Source: Planctomycetota bacterium
Lineage (GTDB): Bacteria > Planctomycetota > Brocadiia > SM23-32
Direction of reading: 5' to 3'
Length of the DNA: 10,028 bases
Assembly (NCBI GenBank): GCA_018400625.1
Contig: JAGYMJ010000622.1
Location: 1 to 10,028 of the forward strand
This document shows, in pieces, positions 1,581 through 9,943 of this stretch; positions within the stretch are counted from its first letter, which is position 1, and every line of letters begins with the position of its first letter. The notes under the pieces are model-generated. The model had not been told where the DNA came from and made no database searches. It was given only the letters and a program-made list of their open reading frames with translations. The translations under genes were made by a program, and so were the position numbers.

Positions 1581-1656
1581 GCAATCTCCATACCAGTGAA
1601 TCATTGCTTCCACCGGCACGGGGTCGGTGAGAGGGGCTTGGTGGTGCATCGCTTAC
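1581..1656. mobile_element. MITE-like palindromic repeat unit A1 (degenerate)
   Basis: This imperfect palindrome of about 76 bp begins GCAATCTCC and ends GCTTAC. Its core is CCACCG (1610-1615) followed by GGCACGGGGT and CGGTG. The left arm contains CCAGTGAATCATTGCTTCC. This aligns with the reverse complement of the right arm in the full-length copies at 8383 and 9861, which read CAGTGAACCACCTTGC. It is joined head to tail to unit A2. No target duplication is seen. It is likely an old, decayed relative, and the left boundary is approximate. Confidence 0.55.
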
Positions 1657-1726
1657 GTAGTGATGAATCATTGGTCCCACCGGCACGAGGTACGGTGGGG
1701 AGCAACGTGGTTCACTGAGGAGTTAC
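1657..1726. mobile_element. MITE-like palindromic repeat unit A2
   Basis: The right arm, from CGGTGGGG to TTCACTGAGGAGTTAC, closely matches the right arms of the copies at 8383-8465 and 9861-9943 (TTCACTGAGGACTTAC). The centre is CCACCG, ten bases, CGGTGG, the same hairpin with the same loop length. The left arm (GATGAATCATTGGTCCCACCG) resembles an inverted right arm, so this unit is nearly a full palindrome. Its right end lies five bases from the stop codon of the sialidase-like gene. Confidence 0.7.
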
Positions 1727-1731
1727 TTTTT

Positions 1732-3018
1732 TTATATTCCAGTGAAAATCAGGGGTTCATCGGGGTCGTCTTTTCCTTTTAAATGGCTCCAGTCTTCATC
1801 TTCCGATATGATCCCCGTCGCCTTATTGACCAACACTTTTTGTCGGGCTTTTGACGATTTGAGTTTGCCCGCATGAAGGTCCTCTTCCGTAAATGTGGCC
1901 ATCAGAATCTCTTTTTCACTGCGGCGACCGTGGTCGTAGATCACGTAAATAGTGCCGTCCGGGGCTTGTGTTCCATCCGGATAAGTGCAACCGCGCTCCT
2001 CTAACAGCAATCCGTCCGTCCAACTTTTCCCTTCATCCTCGGAGAGGAAGGCTGTGAGCCGTGAACGGTTGAATTTTAACGGCTCGCCGTTTTGATCAAG
2101 GGACTCCATCGGGCCGTTTTTTACCAGCAGGATATTGCCGGAGTTCAAACGTCTTAAGAAAAATCGGGAAGAAGTATGGGGGATGCCGGATTCCGTGACG
2201 GGAGACCAGTTCATTCCGCCGTCTTTGGAGACACTTTCCCCGATCCCGTAGCTGGTACGGAGCAGCATCCACAGGCTGCCGTCGCTCCTTTCCACCACCA
2301 TGTGTTCATTATGCGTTCTGCTGCTTTCGACTCCTAAAGCACGTCCCCGCGGCATAAGGGATTCTGAACCGTCTTTAGATGCATATACCCACGCACCTTG
2401 CCGTTCCGCGAGCCTTTCAATCTCTTCGGTTGTCATGAGAGCGAGCAGATAGGTGCGCAGGAACGCCGGCAGCATACGTTTTTCATTTTTCAGCGGGCTT
2501 TCATTATAAAGAGAGACCGGCAGCAGCCATTCACCGTTCTGAAGGACTGTTGGCTTGTTCAGCATCACACCATCGGTCAAGCGCCTGGGCGCCGACCAAT
2601 AAGGGAATTCATCGTCCGGATTGTCCGTCGTCACCGTCCAAACCCCCCACTGTCCATCATGCAAGGTATGGGCCTGGGTCCAGAACAGCCATAGACGTCC
2701 ATTGGGGTCGAGCCAGATATTGGGATCGTAGGCCCGCACATGTCCGGGGGGATCGATAACCATTTTGGCCTCGCTCCAGGATTTTCCATCGTCTTCGCTG
2801 GTCACCACCATAACATAACTGAGCGGGCTTTCTCCCTGTCCTCCTGAAAACCAAACGGCCCATAGACGGCCGGACGGGGCACGTTCTATGGACGGGATCC
2901 CCTGGAAGAGGCGCTTATCTTTTCCGTATTCGGGCCCGGGGTTGAAATTGGGTGCTATAGGTTTTCTCGCTTCTTTAAGTACGGCGGCATAAGTCAGTGA
3001 TTCATTATTTTCTCTCAT
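1732..3018 (-). CDS. Sialidase-family (BNR/Asp-box) protein
   Basis: The 428-residue product has three Asp boxes of the form S-x-D-x-G-x-x-W at residues 74-81 (SEDDGKSW), 264-271 and 326-333. These are the signature of six-bladed beta-propeller sialidases and related exo-glycosidases. Sialidase-family members of this length in PVC bacteria are commonly annotated exo-alpha-sialidase, but true sialic-acid cleavage cannot be read from sequence alone. No signal peptide is seen, suggesting a cytoplasmic enzyme acting on imported oligosaccharides. The ATG is preceded by AAGGAGAC with good spacing. It follows the sulfatase stop by 83 nt on the same strand and is probably co-transcribed. The stop codon is followed almost at once by repeat units A2 and A1, so its original downstream neighbour has been disturbed. 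Confidence 0.85.
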   Translation of the reverse strand: MRENNESLTYAAVLKEARKPIAPNFNPGPEYGKDKRLFQGIPSIERAPSGRLWAVWFSGGQGESPLSYVMVVTSEDDGKSWSEAKMVIDPPGHVRAYDPNIWLDPNGRLWLFWTQAHTLHDGQWGVWTVTTDNPDDEFPYWSAPRRLTDGVMLNKPTVLQNGEWLLPVSLYNESPLKNEKRMLPAFLRTYLLALMTTEEIERLAERQGAWVYASKDGSESLMPRGRALGVESSRTHNEHMVVERSDGSLWMLLRTSYGIGESVSKDGGMNWSPVTESGIPHTSSRFFLRRLNSGNILLVKNGPMESLDQNGEPLKFNRSRLTAFLSEDEGKSWTDGLLLEERGCTYPDGTQAPDGTIYVIYDHGRRSEKEILMATFTEEDLHAGKLKSSKARQKVLVNKATGIISEDEDWSHLKGKDDPDEPLIFTGI

Positions 3019-3101: not shown

Positions 3102-4613
3102 TCAGACGCCCACTTTTTCGGCCCATTCCAGAAAAAGCGTACGGAGTTCATTGACCTTTTCCGGCATCCTCGGCGCCAGATCATTTAATTCGGTGCGGTC
3201 TTTCTGCATATCATATAGTTCCCAGGGACCTTCCTTTTCCATAACCAGTTTCCATTTGCCGTTTCGGATAGCGTGGTTACCGCAGTGCGCCCAGTGGAGT
3301 ATGTCGTGCGGTGTGCGCTCCTTACCTTCAAGCACCGGAGTCAGGCTTTTGCCCTCCACAGGTATAATCGTGTTTTCATTAAAATGGGACGGGTATTCGG
3401 CTTCGGCAACATCACAGAATGTCGGCATAATATCCATCACATGCCCCACCTGATGGTTCAGTCTATTTTCCGCTATATGGCCGGGCCAGTGCGCGATAAG
3501 CGGCGTCGAAATACCGCCCTCATGCACCCAGTGCTTATGGCGCCGGAAGGGGGTATTGCTCGCATTGGACCAGCTTATTCCGTAGCTCAGATAAGAATCG
3601 ACCGTTCCGGGTTTTCCGCCCTGTCCTTCCCTGGCATCAAACCCGAGCGGCCCTCCTTCGTGGCAGGCGCCATTATCGGACAAAAACAAGATCAGTGTAT
3701 TTTCAAATACACCTTTATTTTTCAGGGCGTCAACGACCCTGCCGACGCCCTGATCCATGCGATCGACCTGTGCGGCGTAAATCGCCATTTTGCGCGCCAT
3801 AACCGCCCGTGTTCCGTCGTCAAGCTCATCCCAGTCGTAAGCTTCTTCGTCCTGTGGTGAAAGGGGCCAGGCGGGGTCAATGAGGTTGAGATCGATGAGG
3901 CGCTGATAGCGTTCACGCCTCAGTTCCGCCCAGCCGTCAAGATATCTGCGCTCATACTTTTCGATATCCTCCGGCAAAGCGTGTAAAGGCCAATGGGGGG
4001 CATTATAGGCCAGATAAAGGAAGAAAGGGTTATCCGGTGAATCATGCCCCTCGATACGTTCAACGGCATAATCGGTGAAGGCATCGGTAGCATAAAAATC
4101 TTCAGCGGGCGGTGTATAGGGTTCATTTTCGCGAGCGAATTTTCGCTTGGCGGTCAGGACTTTGGCTTTCGTGATGTCGAAATAATTCATTGCACCGCTG
4201 ATAAGGCCGTAATGGCGATCGAAACCGCGTTCCATGGGCCAATGGGGCTTATCTTCACCGACATGCCATTTACCGGACATATAAGTTGAATAGCCTGCAG
4301 CGCGCAAAACTTCGGCGAGAGTCACGCATTCCCGGTTAAGGTGTCCGAGATAGGCTTTCCCACGCTCATTTTTTTCATTATGGATCATCTTCCCCACTCC
4401 GGCCTGATGCGGATGGAGGCCGGTCAACAGGGACGCGCGGGTAGGGCAGCAGCGGGCGGCATTGTAGAAATTGGAGAACCGCATGCCGCCTTCGGCAAGC
4501 GCGTCAAGATTGGGGGTGTCTATTTCGCCACCGTAGCATCCGATATCCGAGAACCCCATATCATCGACCATAAAGAGCAGGATATTGGGGCGGGAATTTT
4601 GTTTTTTGGACAT
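3102..4613 (-). CDS. Type I (formylglycine) sulfatase, arylsulfatase family
   Basis: The 503-residue protein shows the full alkaline-phosphatase-fold sulfatase signature. Metal ligands are Asp17-Asp18 in FMVDDMG. The modification motif C-x-P-x-R spans residues 55-59 (CCPTR, Cys55 to become formylglycine) and is followed by ASLLTG. GKWHVG holds Lys115 and His117, APHWPLH holds His207, and LSDNG holds Asp313-Asn314. The C-terminal LYDMQKDRTELNDLA is also typical. It would hydrolyse sulfate esters on a polysaccharide or oligosaccharide. No signal peptide is visible at the N-terminus (MSKKQNSRPNILLF), so a cytoplasmic location is inferred. The maturation enzyme (anSME or FGE) is not in this window. 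The start lacks a recognisable Shine-Dalgarno sequence, unlike its neighbours, and lies 36 nt after the secreted-protein gene, so translation may depend on coupling. The exact sulfatase subfamily is undetermined. Confidence 0.95.
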   Translation of the reverse strand: MSKKQNSRPNILLFMVDDMGFSDIGCYGGEIDTPNLDALAEGGMRFSNFYNAARCCPTRASLLTGLHPHQAGVGKMIHNEKNERGKAYLGHLNRECVTLAEVLRAAGYSTYMSGKWHVGEDKPHWPMERGFDRHYGLISGAMNYFDITKAKVLTAKRKFARENEPYTPPAEDFYATDAFTDYAVERIEGHDSPDNPFFLYLAYNAPHWPLHALPEDIEKYERRYLDGWAELRRERYQRLIDLNLIDPAWPLSPQDEEAYDWDELDDGTRAVMARKMAIYAAQVDRMDQGVGRVVDALKNKGVFENTLILFLSDNGACHEGGPLGFDAREGQGGKPGTVDSYLSYGISWSNASNTPFRRHKHWVHEGGISTPLIAHWPGHIAENRLNHQVGHVMDIMPTFCDVAEAEYPSHFNENTIIPVEGKSLTPVLEGKERTPHDILHWAHCGNHAIRNGKWKLVMEKEGPWELYDMQKDRTELNDLAPRMPEKVNELRTLFLEWAEKVGV

Positions 4614-4649
4614 ATTATTGAATTGGGGGATCGTTTATTTAAAAGAATC

Positions 4650-5360
4650 TTACTCCGAATACGGTTTAGCATACACTTTTACATCGCTTATTCTGGCTCG
4701 CGTATAGAAATAGAAGCCGACGCGGTTCTGTTCTTCTTCAAGGACAGAACGGCCTTCTTCATATTCGTACCAGAGCTCCCCATCGACAAAGAAGCGCAGA
4801 TGCCCTTCATCATTCTCGACCACGACATGATGCATCTGATCGGCAACTATCTGGTTTTCAGTATCCTGATCATCGACCAGGGTAGAACCCGCACGAACGA
4901 TACGGTTGCGTGTGTTGTAGTATCCTCCAAACTGGAAGAAGTAGCCGGTGCGAGTGGGGCGTGCTGTTTCACTGGTTTCAATTGACTTGGAATTGATAAA
5001 GGAGCTGACATCACCTATTTCCGGCTCGACATCCATTCCGGGGATAAGCTGAATGACTTCGACATCGGTTACGGCATGGAATTCCATGCGTTGGTAGCTC
5101 AGGGGGCCGTCTTCGGGTAGAGGTACAGCCGAGACGATCGTTCCGCTCCCCCGCAGGTCGCCGTCGACAATTTCCCAGCTTCCCTCATGAATTTCCCATT
5201 TATCGCCCAATTCCTCACGTTCAAAGTCATCTTCAAATACTAATTCCCAGCCGGCATCTTCCGGCGATTCCAATAATTCTTCGGCACTAAGGTTTGCTAT
5301 CCCGACAAGCCCCACAGCCACACACACAGACACGCACAACACCATCCTCACTCTACTCAT
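4650..5360 (-). CDS. Secreted ConA-like (LamG/DUF1080-type) protein
   Basis: The 236-residue protein begins with a signal peptide: basic start MSRVRM, hydrophobic core to about residue 24, likely cleavage after Ala26 (LSA before EE). There is no clear lipobox. The mature part opens WELVFEDDFEREELGDKW and later contains FFVDGELWYEYEEG. This pattern matches concanavalin-A-like jelly-roll domains of the LamG/DUF1080 type found in PVC glycan-degradation loci. It is probably a periplasmic or extracellular carbohydrate-binding protein or a glycoside-active enzyme; no catalytic residues can be assigned. The ATG has a textbook AGGAGG site upstream, and a good promoter lies about 60 nt further up. It is the first gene of the cluster leading into the sulfatase. 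Confidence 0.75.
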   Translation of the reverse strand: MSRVRMVLCVSVCVAVGLVGIANLSAEELLESPEDAGWELVFEDDFEREELGDKWEIHEGSWEIVDGDLRGSGTIVSAVPLPEDGPLSYQRMEFHAVTDVEVIQLIPGMDVEPEIGDVSSFINSKSIETSETARPTRTGYFFQFGGYYNTRNRIVRAGSTLVDDQDTENQIVADQMHHVVVENDEGHLRFFVDGELWYEYEEGRSVLEEEQNRVGFYFYTRARISDVKVYAKPYSE

Positions 5361-7084: not shown

Positions 7085-8335
7085 TTACTTACGAACTCTG
7101 TACAACATTTCGCCGGCTTTGGGCACATACAAGACGCCTTCATCTTCGCGGTCTTTATAAGCCCCGACATCGACGGAATCAGGATCCATATAACCAAGGT
7201 TGACTTTTTTACATCTTTCTTCCGGTATTCCGGTAGCGAGTATGACCTGAGCCCGGGGTTTTTCCACACCCTTCTCATAACTTCCAATCCCTTTCACGTG
7301 GGTTGAATGCGCTAAAACGCCCCAGGGATAGTCCTTGAATTTATCCCACTGTTTCCGAAAATAATCGCGGGTATGATAACCTATTTTGTCCAGGTCTTCA
7401 CCGTGCGTATAAGATATTTCTGTGATATGAGGGGCATAAATGATTAACTTGCCGCCTTCGGCTAATACCGGTTCCAATTTATACATACATTTACCGCCCG
7501 TCCAAAGGTCATCATACATTTTGGGCGCACAAGAAAGTACGGTGTGGAAGGGGTGGTTTTTATAGACGATGTGTATTTTATCCGAAAGGTCGGCGGCTTC
7601 CGACCACGCTTCTTCCGTGCCGCCGTAATACAATCCTGCAAGCTCATGCCCTTTAACCACCATACAAAAAGCACTTTTTTCAACGGGCACGTACGACGCT
7701 GCAAGGTCGAGAACGCGGCGCACGGGGGTCCATTTGTTACCGATTATATCGGGGTTGGTTATAACCGCTCCAAGCCAGTGGAAGAAATCGATGATCTCCT
7801 TGCCGGCGATCCCGGGAAAGATATACTTATTTCCGCCCGAAAATCCAACAACTTCGTGAGGGAAAACAGGACCGACAACCATGAGATGGTCGTAGTCGAG
7901 AATTTTCTTGTTCACTGTAAGTTTAACCTCCATGCGGAAAAGCCCGTCGCTGAGTTCCTCCACTTTCTCCTCCGGGATGACTCCCAGATCGGTGAGGGCG
8001 TCATTCTCTTTCCACATGTGGTTGAAAAAGCGAACATCGGAATACTTTTCCTGATGCTCCGCCCTGGTCATGCTCATTCGTTCATATATTTGTGCCTCCG
8101 ACATAGGCGGATGGGTGCCAAGCGCTATCATGACATCCAGGGCTTTCACCCTGTCGGACAGAGCGGCATAAATTGAGCGGAACATGAGCCCAATCGGGGC
8201 TGTTCGCGTGTGATCAGGAACAATGAGAAGGACTTTCTGGCCGTCAAGTTTGCCGTCAGACATCGCGTCGGAGACGATATCGTTTATTTGTTCCTCGGGT
8301 AAGTATTTGTCTGGATGACCTTTACCAACAACCAC
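7085..8335 (-). CDS. LarA-type nickel-pincer hydroxyacid racemase/epimerase homologue
   Basis: The 416-residue protein belongs to the lactate racemase LarA family (DUF2088). Members use a nickel-pincer nucleotide cofactor to invert an alpha-hydroxy acid carbon by hydride transfer. Asp41 and Arg44 lie in VPDHTRTAP, and His75 lies in IALGTHPP (cf. His108 of Lactiplantibacillus LarA). PHEVVGFSGGNKYIFPG provides His160 and Lys170, and His186 follows sixteen residues later. These spacings reproduce His174-Lys184-His200 of LarA exactly, so the cofactor site looks intact. The start is GTG, set by AGGAGA six bases upstream. The cofactor genes larB, larC and larE are absent here and would have to lie elsewhere. 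Transcription is expected from the consensus promoter at 8476-8504, through the inserted repeat. The substrate is unknown; the family also includes malate racemases and a D-gluconate 2-epimerase, so the neighbouring gnd hints at a sugar acid. Confidence 0.85.
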   Translation of the reverse strand: MVVGKGHPDKYLPEEQINDIVSDAMSDGKLDGQKVLLIVPDHTRTAPIGLMFRSIYAALSDRVKALDVMIALGTHPPMSEAQIYERMSMTRAEHQEKYSDVRFFNHMWKENDALTDLGVIPEEKVEELSDGLFRMEVKLTVNKKILDYDHLMVVGPVFPHEVVGFSGGNKYIFPGIAGKEIIDFFHWLGAVITNPDIIGNKWTPVRRVLDLAASYVPVEKSAFCMVVKGHELAGLYYGGTEEAWSEAADLSDKIHIVYKNHPFHTVLSCAPKMYDDLWTGGKCMYKLEPVLAEGGKLIIYAPHITEISYTHGEDLDKIGYHTRDYFRKQWDKFKDYPWGVLAHSTHVKGIGSYEKGVEKPRAQVILATGIPEERCKKVNLGYMDPDSVDVGAYKDREDEGVLYVPKAGEMLYRVRK

Positions 8336-8374: not shown

Positions 8375-8382
8375 ATAAAGCG
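8375..8382. repeat. Target-site duplication, left copy (ATAAAGCG)
   Basis: This octamer is identical to 8466-8473. The two copies exactly abut the two ends of the 83-bp element between them. The identity can be extended by GTA if the first three element bases are counted. Confidence 0.85.
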
Positions 8383-8465
8383 GTAAATATTCAGCGAAGT
8401 GCGCAGTTTTCTCACCACCGTGCCCTGTGCCGGTGGGGATGCAAGGTGGTTCACTGAGGACTTAC
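8383..8465. mobile_element. IS66-type MITE, copy B (83 bp)
   Basis: The element starts GTAAATATTCAGCGAA and ends TTCACTGAGGACTTAC. The ends form imperfect terminal inverted repeats (GTAA-T--TCAG-GAA conserved). The centre is a hairpin CCACCG (8415-8420), ten bases, CGGTGG (8431-8436). It aligns without length change to the copy at 9861-9943. Perfect 8-bp direct repeats flank it. GTAA termini and 8-bp duplications are known traits of the IS66 family, so passive mobilisation by an IS66-type transposase is inferred; no transposase is in the window. It has no coding capacity. It lies between the promoter at 8476-8504 and the LarA-like gene. Confidence 0.82.
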
Positions 8466-8473
8466 ATAAAGCG
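8466..8473. repeat. Target-site duplication, right copy (ATAAAGCG)
   Basis: This is the perfect repeat of 8375-8382 directly beyond the right end of the 83-bp element. It also overlaps the expected transcription start of the adjacent minus-strand promoter. Confidence 0.85.
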
Positions 8474-8562: not shown

Positions 8563-8862
8563 TCATGCCTTTTCCCGCATCTTCTGTAAAAGCTCCAGAT
8601 ACTCGTTAACGGTCGCCTCCATGATCTCTTTGCCTTTTTCAGCCGTAGCCGCTTGAGGACACCCATAGGCACCGGTTTTGCTGCTTGTATGTCCCCAGGT
8701 TGACCAGAATACTTTTGCATTATGGCGCGTGATCAGGTCACCGTCGACGAACCGGTTGCGGGTTTTGACGGGTTCATCTTCAGCTTCGGACATATCAACC
8801 CTTTTCTCCATCCCGAGCATTAAAGAGGTTTCATATACGCCCGTTTCTTCCCTTACCAGCTT
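8563..8862 (-). pseudogene. C-terminal remnant of a creatininase-family amidohydrolase
   Basis: The open frame contains GVYETSLMLGMEKRVDMSEA and, later, WSTWGHTSSKTGAYGCPQAA. Both are typical of the C-terminal half of creatininase-family amidohydrolases, metal enzymes that open cyclic or amide substrates. The Glu of ETSLML corresponds to a metal ligand. Family members are about 240-260 residues, whereas only about 100 recognisable residues remain here. The N-terminal metal-binding half (the usual E-x-H and Asp ligands) is missing. The frame can be extended to a TTG at 8919, but residues beyond about 8862 run through a G8 tract (8881-8888) and look non-homologous. It lies directly downstream of purC on the same strand. 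It is most likely a deletion relic and non-functional as an enzyme. Confidence 0.75.
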
Positions 8863-8880
8863 TCCCCGACGCGAGAATGC

Positions 8881-8888
8881 GGGGGGGG
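8881..8888. repeat. G8 homopolymer upstream of the creatininase remnant
   Basis: Eight consecutive G residues lie at the degenerate 5' side of the creatininase remnant. The similar flanks GAGAATGCG and GAGAATCCTGCG lie on either side. Changing its length would not restore the missing N-terminal half, because purC coding sequence begins 33 nt beyond it. Confidence 0.55.
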
Positions 8889-8920
8889 CGCATGAGAATC
8901 CTGCGTTCCCAAAACTCAAG

Positions 8921-9860: not shown

Positions 9861-9943
9861 GTAAGTCTTCAGTAAAGTGCACAGTTTTATCCCCACCGTT
9901 CTCTGTGCCGGTGGTGAAGCAGCGTCGTTCACTGAGGACTTCC
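9861..9943. mobile_element. IS66-type MITE, copy C (83 bp)
   Basis: This second full-length copy is in the same orientation and of the same length as that at 8383-8465. The left end GTAAGTCTTCAGTAAA pairs with the right end TTCACTGAGGACTTCC as imperfect inverted repeats. The central hairpin is CCACCG (9893-9898), ten bases, CGGTGG (9909-9914). No convincing 8-bp duplication remains (left flank ATGTTGCC, right flank ATCTAGGT) and the last bases have diverged, suggesting an older insertion than copy B. It fills the gap between the stop codon of the upstream gene (9946-9948) and purC. Confidence 0.75.

Follow-up and report, generated by a model that had tools for sequence, protein, structure and literature searches.

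A high-copy family of MITEs with IS66-type ends in a Planctomycetota genome and its relatives

The 83-bp element at positions 8383–8465 of the window (the whole stretch of DNA analysed here, 10,028 nucleotides, which makes up the entire contig C622) belongs to a family that, by the features tested, is a MITE family with IS66-type ends. Judging from the sequences, the element is very probably moved by an IS66-type transposase, most likely one of a DruA-associated clade. In the mechanism that we propose, an IS66 transposase, most likely from the clade in which DruA lies beside tnpC (L052, L109, and L311), would recognise the ends of the element in trans and join it to staggered 8-bp cuts. The growth of the family would be due to internal deletions within an IS66 of this kind and to the uptake of other hairpins, with the central hairpin flipping at times.

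Structure and setting of the element

The preliminary description had reported an 83-bp element with the ends GTAA...TTAC and a perfect 8-bp duplication, all of which can be read directly. The element occupies 8383–8465 on the plus strand, and the octamer ATAAAGCG stands to its left (8375–8382) and again to its right (8466–8473), the exact 8-bp length being found family-wide. The match between its termini is longer than four bases, and the 22-nt family end, defined by eye from sampled copies, is GTAARTMYTCAGTGAACCMCGT. An A-type end lies on the left (8383–8404, plus strand; initial 16 nt, GTAAATATTCAGCGAA) and a G-type end on the right (8444–8465, minus strand; inward reading, GTAAGTCCTCAGTGAA). 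Between them lies a core hairpin of the form CCACCG-loop-CGGTGG (8415–8436, plus strand), which is inverted between like arms in some other copies. The element thus combines three MITE traits, in that it is short, has terminal inverted repeats, and carries no transposase gene; the list of open reading frames contained no frame of 60 or more amino acids over it.

The two frames on either side of the copy are both on the minus strand. It lies upstream of one, a gene with a lactate-racemase N-terminal domain (7085–8335), and downstream of the other, a creatininase-like fragment (8563–8919). The latter, a frame of 118 amino acids adjoined by a G run at 8881–8888, covers only positions 163–238 of a 238-position profile, which suggests a truncated gene or an assembly frameshift. 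The copy had also been called recent on the strength of its duplication. The duplication is indeed intact and recency is plausible, but because the copies of the family are diverse, it gives no close insertion date.

Copy number and genomic distribution

The expectation that the element would recur in its own genome was borne out, hundreds of further copies being found in the source genome (3.19 Mb, 698 contigs, 83% complete). A DNA search of this genome gave 49 match rows from the best 40 of 555 first-look candidates. With at most one mismatch, the 16-nt end pattern occurred 635 times in the source genome versus twice for the reversed pattern, an excess that is not due to chance. In G001 it was found 183 times (control, 2) and in G002 104 times (control, 1), both being genomes of the window's genus, and each of the other 95 of the 98 genomes had 0–47 matches. 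The 22-nt end, with at most two mismatches, was found 560 times in the source genome, 169 times in G001, and 91 times in G002, and the reversed-pattern controls gave 0. Since a whole element has two ends, 560 matches correspond to at least about 280 elements in the source genome, and the family therefore shows the multiple dispersed copies typical of MITEs.

A contig sample, in which all of C1–C102 were read (451,545 bases, 14% of the source genome), contained 25 paired elements, eight of them exactly 83 bp long. Only two of the 25 lay mostly within a reading frame, versus 89.8% of random 83-mers, with the frames taken from a simple script rather than a gene caller; the family shows a preference for intergenic DNA. 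The sample also held 72 other strong ends that were unpaired, and 53 of these lay no more than 120 nt from a contig edge and pointed into it. With a less strict threshold, the same was true of 60 of 140 ends, with about four expected by chance according to our calculation. Contigs therefore frequently terminate inside elements. Identical 45-nt halves also recurred within the 14% sample, with five copies of one half and four of another.

In G014, which had 47 end matches, ends of the form GTAACTATTCAGCGAA occurred near many contig edges, as if a high-copy IS66-like repeat had broken the assembly; IS66-domain matches in this genome numbered only two.

Target duplications

Flanking sequences were compared in 87 distinct elements from several genomes, taken from all loci collected at that stage and probably including some false pairs. 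A perfect 8-bp duplication was present in 30 of them, a match at seven of eight positions in 10, and a match at six or fewer positions in 47, so that 57 elements were without a perfect duplication. Perfect 8-mers arose in 0.34% of reshuffled flanks. Exact flank matches of 4–7 or 9–12 bp occurred in none of the 87 elements, and matches of 3 bp in four. The family thus has the fixed-length target duplication of a MITE, at exactly 8 bp in these 30 elements, and its combination of a GTAA terminus with an 8-bp duplication is the one expected of an IS66-derived element and is also found in the IS66 loci of relatives.

In line with what the window copy had led us to expect, other copies in the source genome carried perfect 8-bp duplications (L003, L006, L007, and L009). 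So did four of the 24 elements of the contig sample whose flanks were readable (on contigs C33, C49, C79, and C85), the remainder matching at seven of eight positions (four elements), at six (four), or at fewer (12). When the octamers were compared, the duplications were A/T-rich and had no fixed word in common. Near-typical copies, such as L020 and L027, were among those without a duplication. Contig halves rejoined by complementary flanking octamers (swapped halves) gave five cross pairs, versus three identical-octamer controls.

One locus, L244 (4022–4275), holds two nested copies, an element within an element, and a separate perfect 8-bp duplication flanks each of them.

Core hairpin and folding

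Among 40 short elements of 70–110 bp, 31 joined an A-type (GTAAATATT-like) end to a G-type (GTAAGTCCT-like) end. By pattern reading, the core of these 31 elements ran one way in 15 and the other way in six, and was uncalled in 10. Two copies from G002 (L031 and L048) have nearly alike arms and an inverted core. Because the core occurs in both orientations between like arms, it seems that the hairpin loop can be inverted in place.

When 20 copies were aligned on the fold of L027, 86.8% of the cells paired, versus 83.4% in shuffles, and changes on both sides were found in 16 cells, versus 7.9 in shuffles. Seven pairs had a change on both sides, versus a shuffle mean of 4.6. The copies beat every shuffle in three of five measures, and the other two values were reached by 41 (the count of pairs with both-side changes) and 29 of 500 shuffles. 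The support that these statistics lend to a conserved structure is mild, because one of the aligned copies supplied the structure and the copies are related to one another. Folding strength varied, with some copies well above shuffles (L027, z = −8.7) and others weak. The window copy itself folded weakly relative to shuffles, with RNA z-scores of −1.2 on the plus strand and −2.8 on the other and a DNA z-score of −1.2, and no Rfam family matched in the window at gathering scores. Copies that matched over only half of their length had been considered as the 3′ ends of coding genes, a reading that was rejected in that they are the arms of a longer palindromic type.

Short, intergenic, hairpin-forming sequences in hundreds of copies, with base pairing of this kind, could also be extragenic palindromes of the REP kind, kept for roles in RNA or the chromosome and not mobilised by a DDE transposase. 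Many intergenic hairpins are indeed found both in this family and among REP/ERIC palindromes, and the accessible text of a 2024 review gives up to 711 copies of ERIC in Photorhabdus (PMC10969869). Nevertheless, we consider this reading very unlikely for the present family, given its precise ends and exact 8-bp target duplications, the weak fold of the window copy, and the lack of an Rfam match. To our knowledge, REPs make no such target duplications, and the family differs from the REP/RAYT palindromes in this respect.

IS66 elements and relics with similar ends

The preliminary description had named IS66 on the basis of GTAA termini and 8-bp duplications, and this combination was found in IS66 elements of the phylum and of other genomes. 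It was present, with a perfect duplication, in eight of 25 IS66 loci (L050, L051, L053, L059, L063, L064, L072, and L074), whereas the other 17 showed no such end pair, in some cases because of a contig end. A second IS66 set gave seven of 20 (L288, L313, L318, L320, L322, L324, and L326), of which L326 had already been counted as L050 in the first. The scripts used for these ends allowed only the forms GTAN or GNAA, and the variants seen included GTAT on one side of L053 and GTAC on both sides of L320. Among the IS66 ends of the same class are GTAACTATTCAGCGAA in L059 and the right-hand end TTCACTGAATAGTTAC in L055.

The portions of the published accounts available to us agree with these ends: IS66 ends begin GTAAGCGTCCGGCGAAC, with GTAAGCGTCCGGCGAACTCACCTT given as the end of a Pseudomonas IS66 (PMC12888890), and repeats of 8 bp are recorded for two IS66 elements (PMC3281130). 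GTAA-type ends and 8-bp duplications are thus common to the MITE family and to the IS66 insertion sequences, as far as those portions go, but the MITE is gene-less and 83 bp long, whereas the IS66 elements that we measured with duplications were approximately 1.5–2.5 kb. The A-type MITE end agrees with the Pseudomonas end at 11 of the first 17 positions, all six differences being transitions, and the G-type end differs at six of 17, five of which are transitions.

As had been anticipated, ends identical or similar to those of the MITE are carried by IS66 elements or relics within the genus, within the class, and elsewhere. In G001, a genome of the window's genus, a fragment of an IS66 tnpC (L297; 47% identical to the L052 TnpC across 53 aligned positions) lies approximately 180 nt from the end GTAAATCCTCAGTGAACCCCGT, which matches the 22-mer with no mismatch and has no partner end nearby. 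In a MAG labelled Vermiphilus (L293), a broken tnpC is followed after approximately 80–100 nt by GTAAATCCTCAGTAAACCACGT, with one mismatch. The complete IS66 of L052 (2737 bp) has the 22-mer at both ends with three mismatches and flanks that match at 2/8 positions; L284 likewise has three mismatches at both ends, with flanks at 3/8, and L313 has three at both ends with a perfect duplication. L311 and L312 have one end each with four mismatches, a level at which about 0.1 matches per locus are calculated to occur by chance. The best candidates for an autonomous insertion sequence with the MITE ends were relics with 0–1 mismatch on one side (L297 and L293) and elements with three mismatches on both sides (L052 and L313). 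Only a single end was present at L293, L297, L311, and L312, and none of the complete IS66 elements seen carried the exact 22-mer on each side.

A scan for end pairs 0.45–6 kb apart with 7–8 flank matches covered 367 loci (1,497,648 bases, with overlaps), many of which came from IS66 searches, so that the sample leans towards IS66. It gave four distinct elements, namely the IS66 elements L051, L059, and L313 (found again as L328) and the element in L221. The latter (4285–5022) is 738 bp long, has both ends and the perfect duplication TTCATACC, and contains nested repeats, among them the core of a long-type MITE; its longest frame is 80 amino acids. Frames near unpaired ends (L251, L221, and L228) were considered as candidate transposases and set aside, as they appear from their sequences to be ordinary genes.

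The IS66–DruA clade and the search for a helper

An IS66 clade with a DruA-domain gene (PF14236) beside tnpC was observed at L052 (125–2861), L109 (1895–4209), and L311 (2–2665), with L109, from G001, and L311 repeating the TnpC–DruA arrangement of L052. The name DruA comes from the phage-defence system Druantia, and in this clade the DruA-domain protein looks like a transposition partner or a passenger. No link between IS66 and DruA was described in the literature searched. The clade is close to the MITE family in that the ends of L052 match the MITE pattern with three mismatches each and L109 is in the same genus. It differs in that its members carry TnpC and the DruA-domain protein and that the exact MITE end is absent from the complete copies seen. 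For L109, no good end of its own was found, and the nearest candidate, with six mismatches, looks like a decayed MITE.

In the source genome (G000), which is 83% complete, the IS66 domain PF03050 gave no match, so that no IS66 transposase was found alongside the MITEs; neither a DruA domain nor a candidate for the L052 TnpC was detected there. Within the genus, an IS66 transposase was present in G001 and not in G002. The IS66 domain was found in 47 of the 98 genomes of the relatives search (source genome counted) and in seven of a set of 23 genomes, in which G001 and G100 are, by their identical matches, the same assembly. It was missing in the other 16 of the 23; ends were counted in 22 of the set, each of which had at least one match and several only 1–4. 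DruA alone was rejected as the helper, as it was found in only six of the 23 genomes. A plasmid search with the L052 TnpC gave, among the matches listed, only distant IS66 relatives with <60% identity. Multicopy IS elements and repeats are often dropped from bins. The absence of IS66 from the source genome therefore weighs little, since the genomes are mostly MAGs, from whose bins repeats are easily lost, and the completeness is 83%.

Two alternatives draw on this absence. In the first, a transposase of another family that makes 8-bp duplications moves the MITE, and its likeness to IS66 is a matter of convergence; besides the lack of a detected IS66 in the source genome and in the 16 genomes above, an IS6 element with an 8-bp duplication appears in the accessible listing of PMC3281130. 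This is improbable, however, because IS66 relics end in the 22-mer, the closest IS66 relatives have similar ends, the differences from the published IS66 end are mostly transitions, and no non-IS66 gene was bracketed by the ends and a duplication in the 367 loci of the IS66-leaning sample. The second is compatible with movement by IS66 and holds that the family is dead, having been spread by an IS66 since lost, with the copies as its fossils. The retention in G001 of an IS66–DruA pair together with fragments and the 57 of 87 elements without a perfect duplication would fit such a history, as would the missing IS66 of the source genome, although at this completeness that absence is weak evidence. 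The identical 45-nt halves and the contigs that end inside copies point instead to young, near-identical copies, and we regard a dead family as possible, if somewhat doubtful.

Distribution across labelled phyla

A scan of genome contigs with the 22-nt pattern found at least 69 loci in at least 21 assemblies, versus about one expected by calculation, with the assemblies told apart by accession prefix and records of the source genome possibly left out. The labels among the matches listed, which are those of the depositors, included Aerophobetes, Omnitrophota, Cloacimonadota, "Clostridia", "Brocadiaceae", Nitrospirota, Phycisphaerae, and Sumerlaeota; the "Brocadiaceae" MAGs G002 (PUMZ01) and G001 (PWZK01) belong to the same genus as the window. 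Among the matches listed, eight of 21 assemblies had elements with perfect 8-bp duplications, representing four labelled phyla ("Brocadiaceae", "Clostridia", Aerophobetes, and Cloacimonadota) and one assembly without a phylum label. The end was counted 136 times in G101 and 102 times in G103 (controls, 0), but only 1–4 times in several other genomes, where it may represent a lone remnant or a misbinned contig. Viral contigs contained no exact match to the end.

Outside the window's genus, the cores were unlike that of the window and were instead CATTGCGAGC...GCAATCTC-like, GTAGCCGCACCC-like, or GTCATTCTGAGCG-like, motifs that we take to be widespread repeats. We put forward, tentatively, that a single IS66-type end module is common to several bacterial phyla and packages unrelated hairpin cores, in which case a sizeable share of the dispersed intergenic palindromes in uncultured bacteria would be carried by one transposition system. 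The DruA-associated IS66 clade would serve this module, which may move across phyla while its cores flip or are exchanged.

Comparison with known MITEs

No IS66-type MITE was described in the literature searched, most subscription journals and ISfinder having been outside its reach. Like Chunjie, QMITE, and MITECca01, the present family is short, has inverted ends, and occurs in many intergenic copies, but the parent of MITECca01 is IS982, not IS66, in the available text of PMC9769881. In that of PMC3189936, MITEPsy1 ("IS5?") and MITEPsy2 (Tn3-like ends) are likewise not assigned to IS66. The accessible portion of PMC12888890 describes a MITE with a 4-bp repeat, and "IS66" has 0 occurrences in that of the 2024 MITE review (PMC10969869). 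For a MITE, the family has an unusual number of copies, and it is also unusual in that it occurs with different cores in assemblies labelled as several phyla and has a core that apparently inverts. If our reading is correct, a transposase family can be named for a very numerous repeat of uncultured bacteria, which would help to explain the shattered assemblies of some of them, and the 22-nt end would provide a concrete means of finding IS66-dependent MITEs in other phyla.

Other relatives in the window

The same-length relative that had been proposed at 9861–9943 is indeed 83 bp long and 82% identical over 88 nt, and it lies on the plus strand upstream of a SAICAR synthetase gene, but it has no duplication, its flanks matching at 4/8 positions. 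Shorter relatives had been placed at 1581–1726; a relative is present there, but rather as one copy of the longer palindromic type, approximately 130 bp in length (1597–1726, plus strand), in which only one end is clear (TTCACTGAGGAGTTAC, 1711–1726) and whose fold has a z-score of −3.8 relative to shuffles. It is flanked on opposite sides by an apparent reading-frame remnant (1141–1570), in which a G run was noted by eye at 1413–1420, and by a BNR-repeat gene (1732–3018); when it inserted, it may have interrupted a decayed gene or landed beside one.
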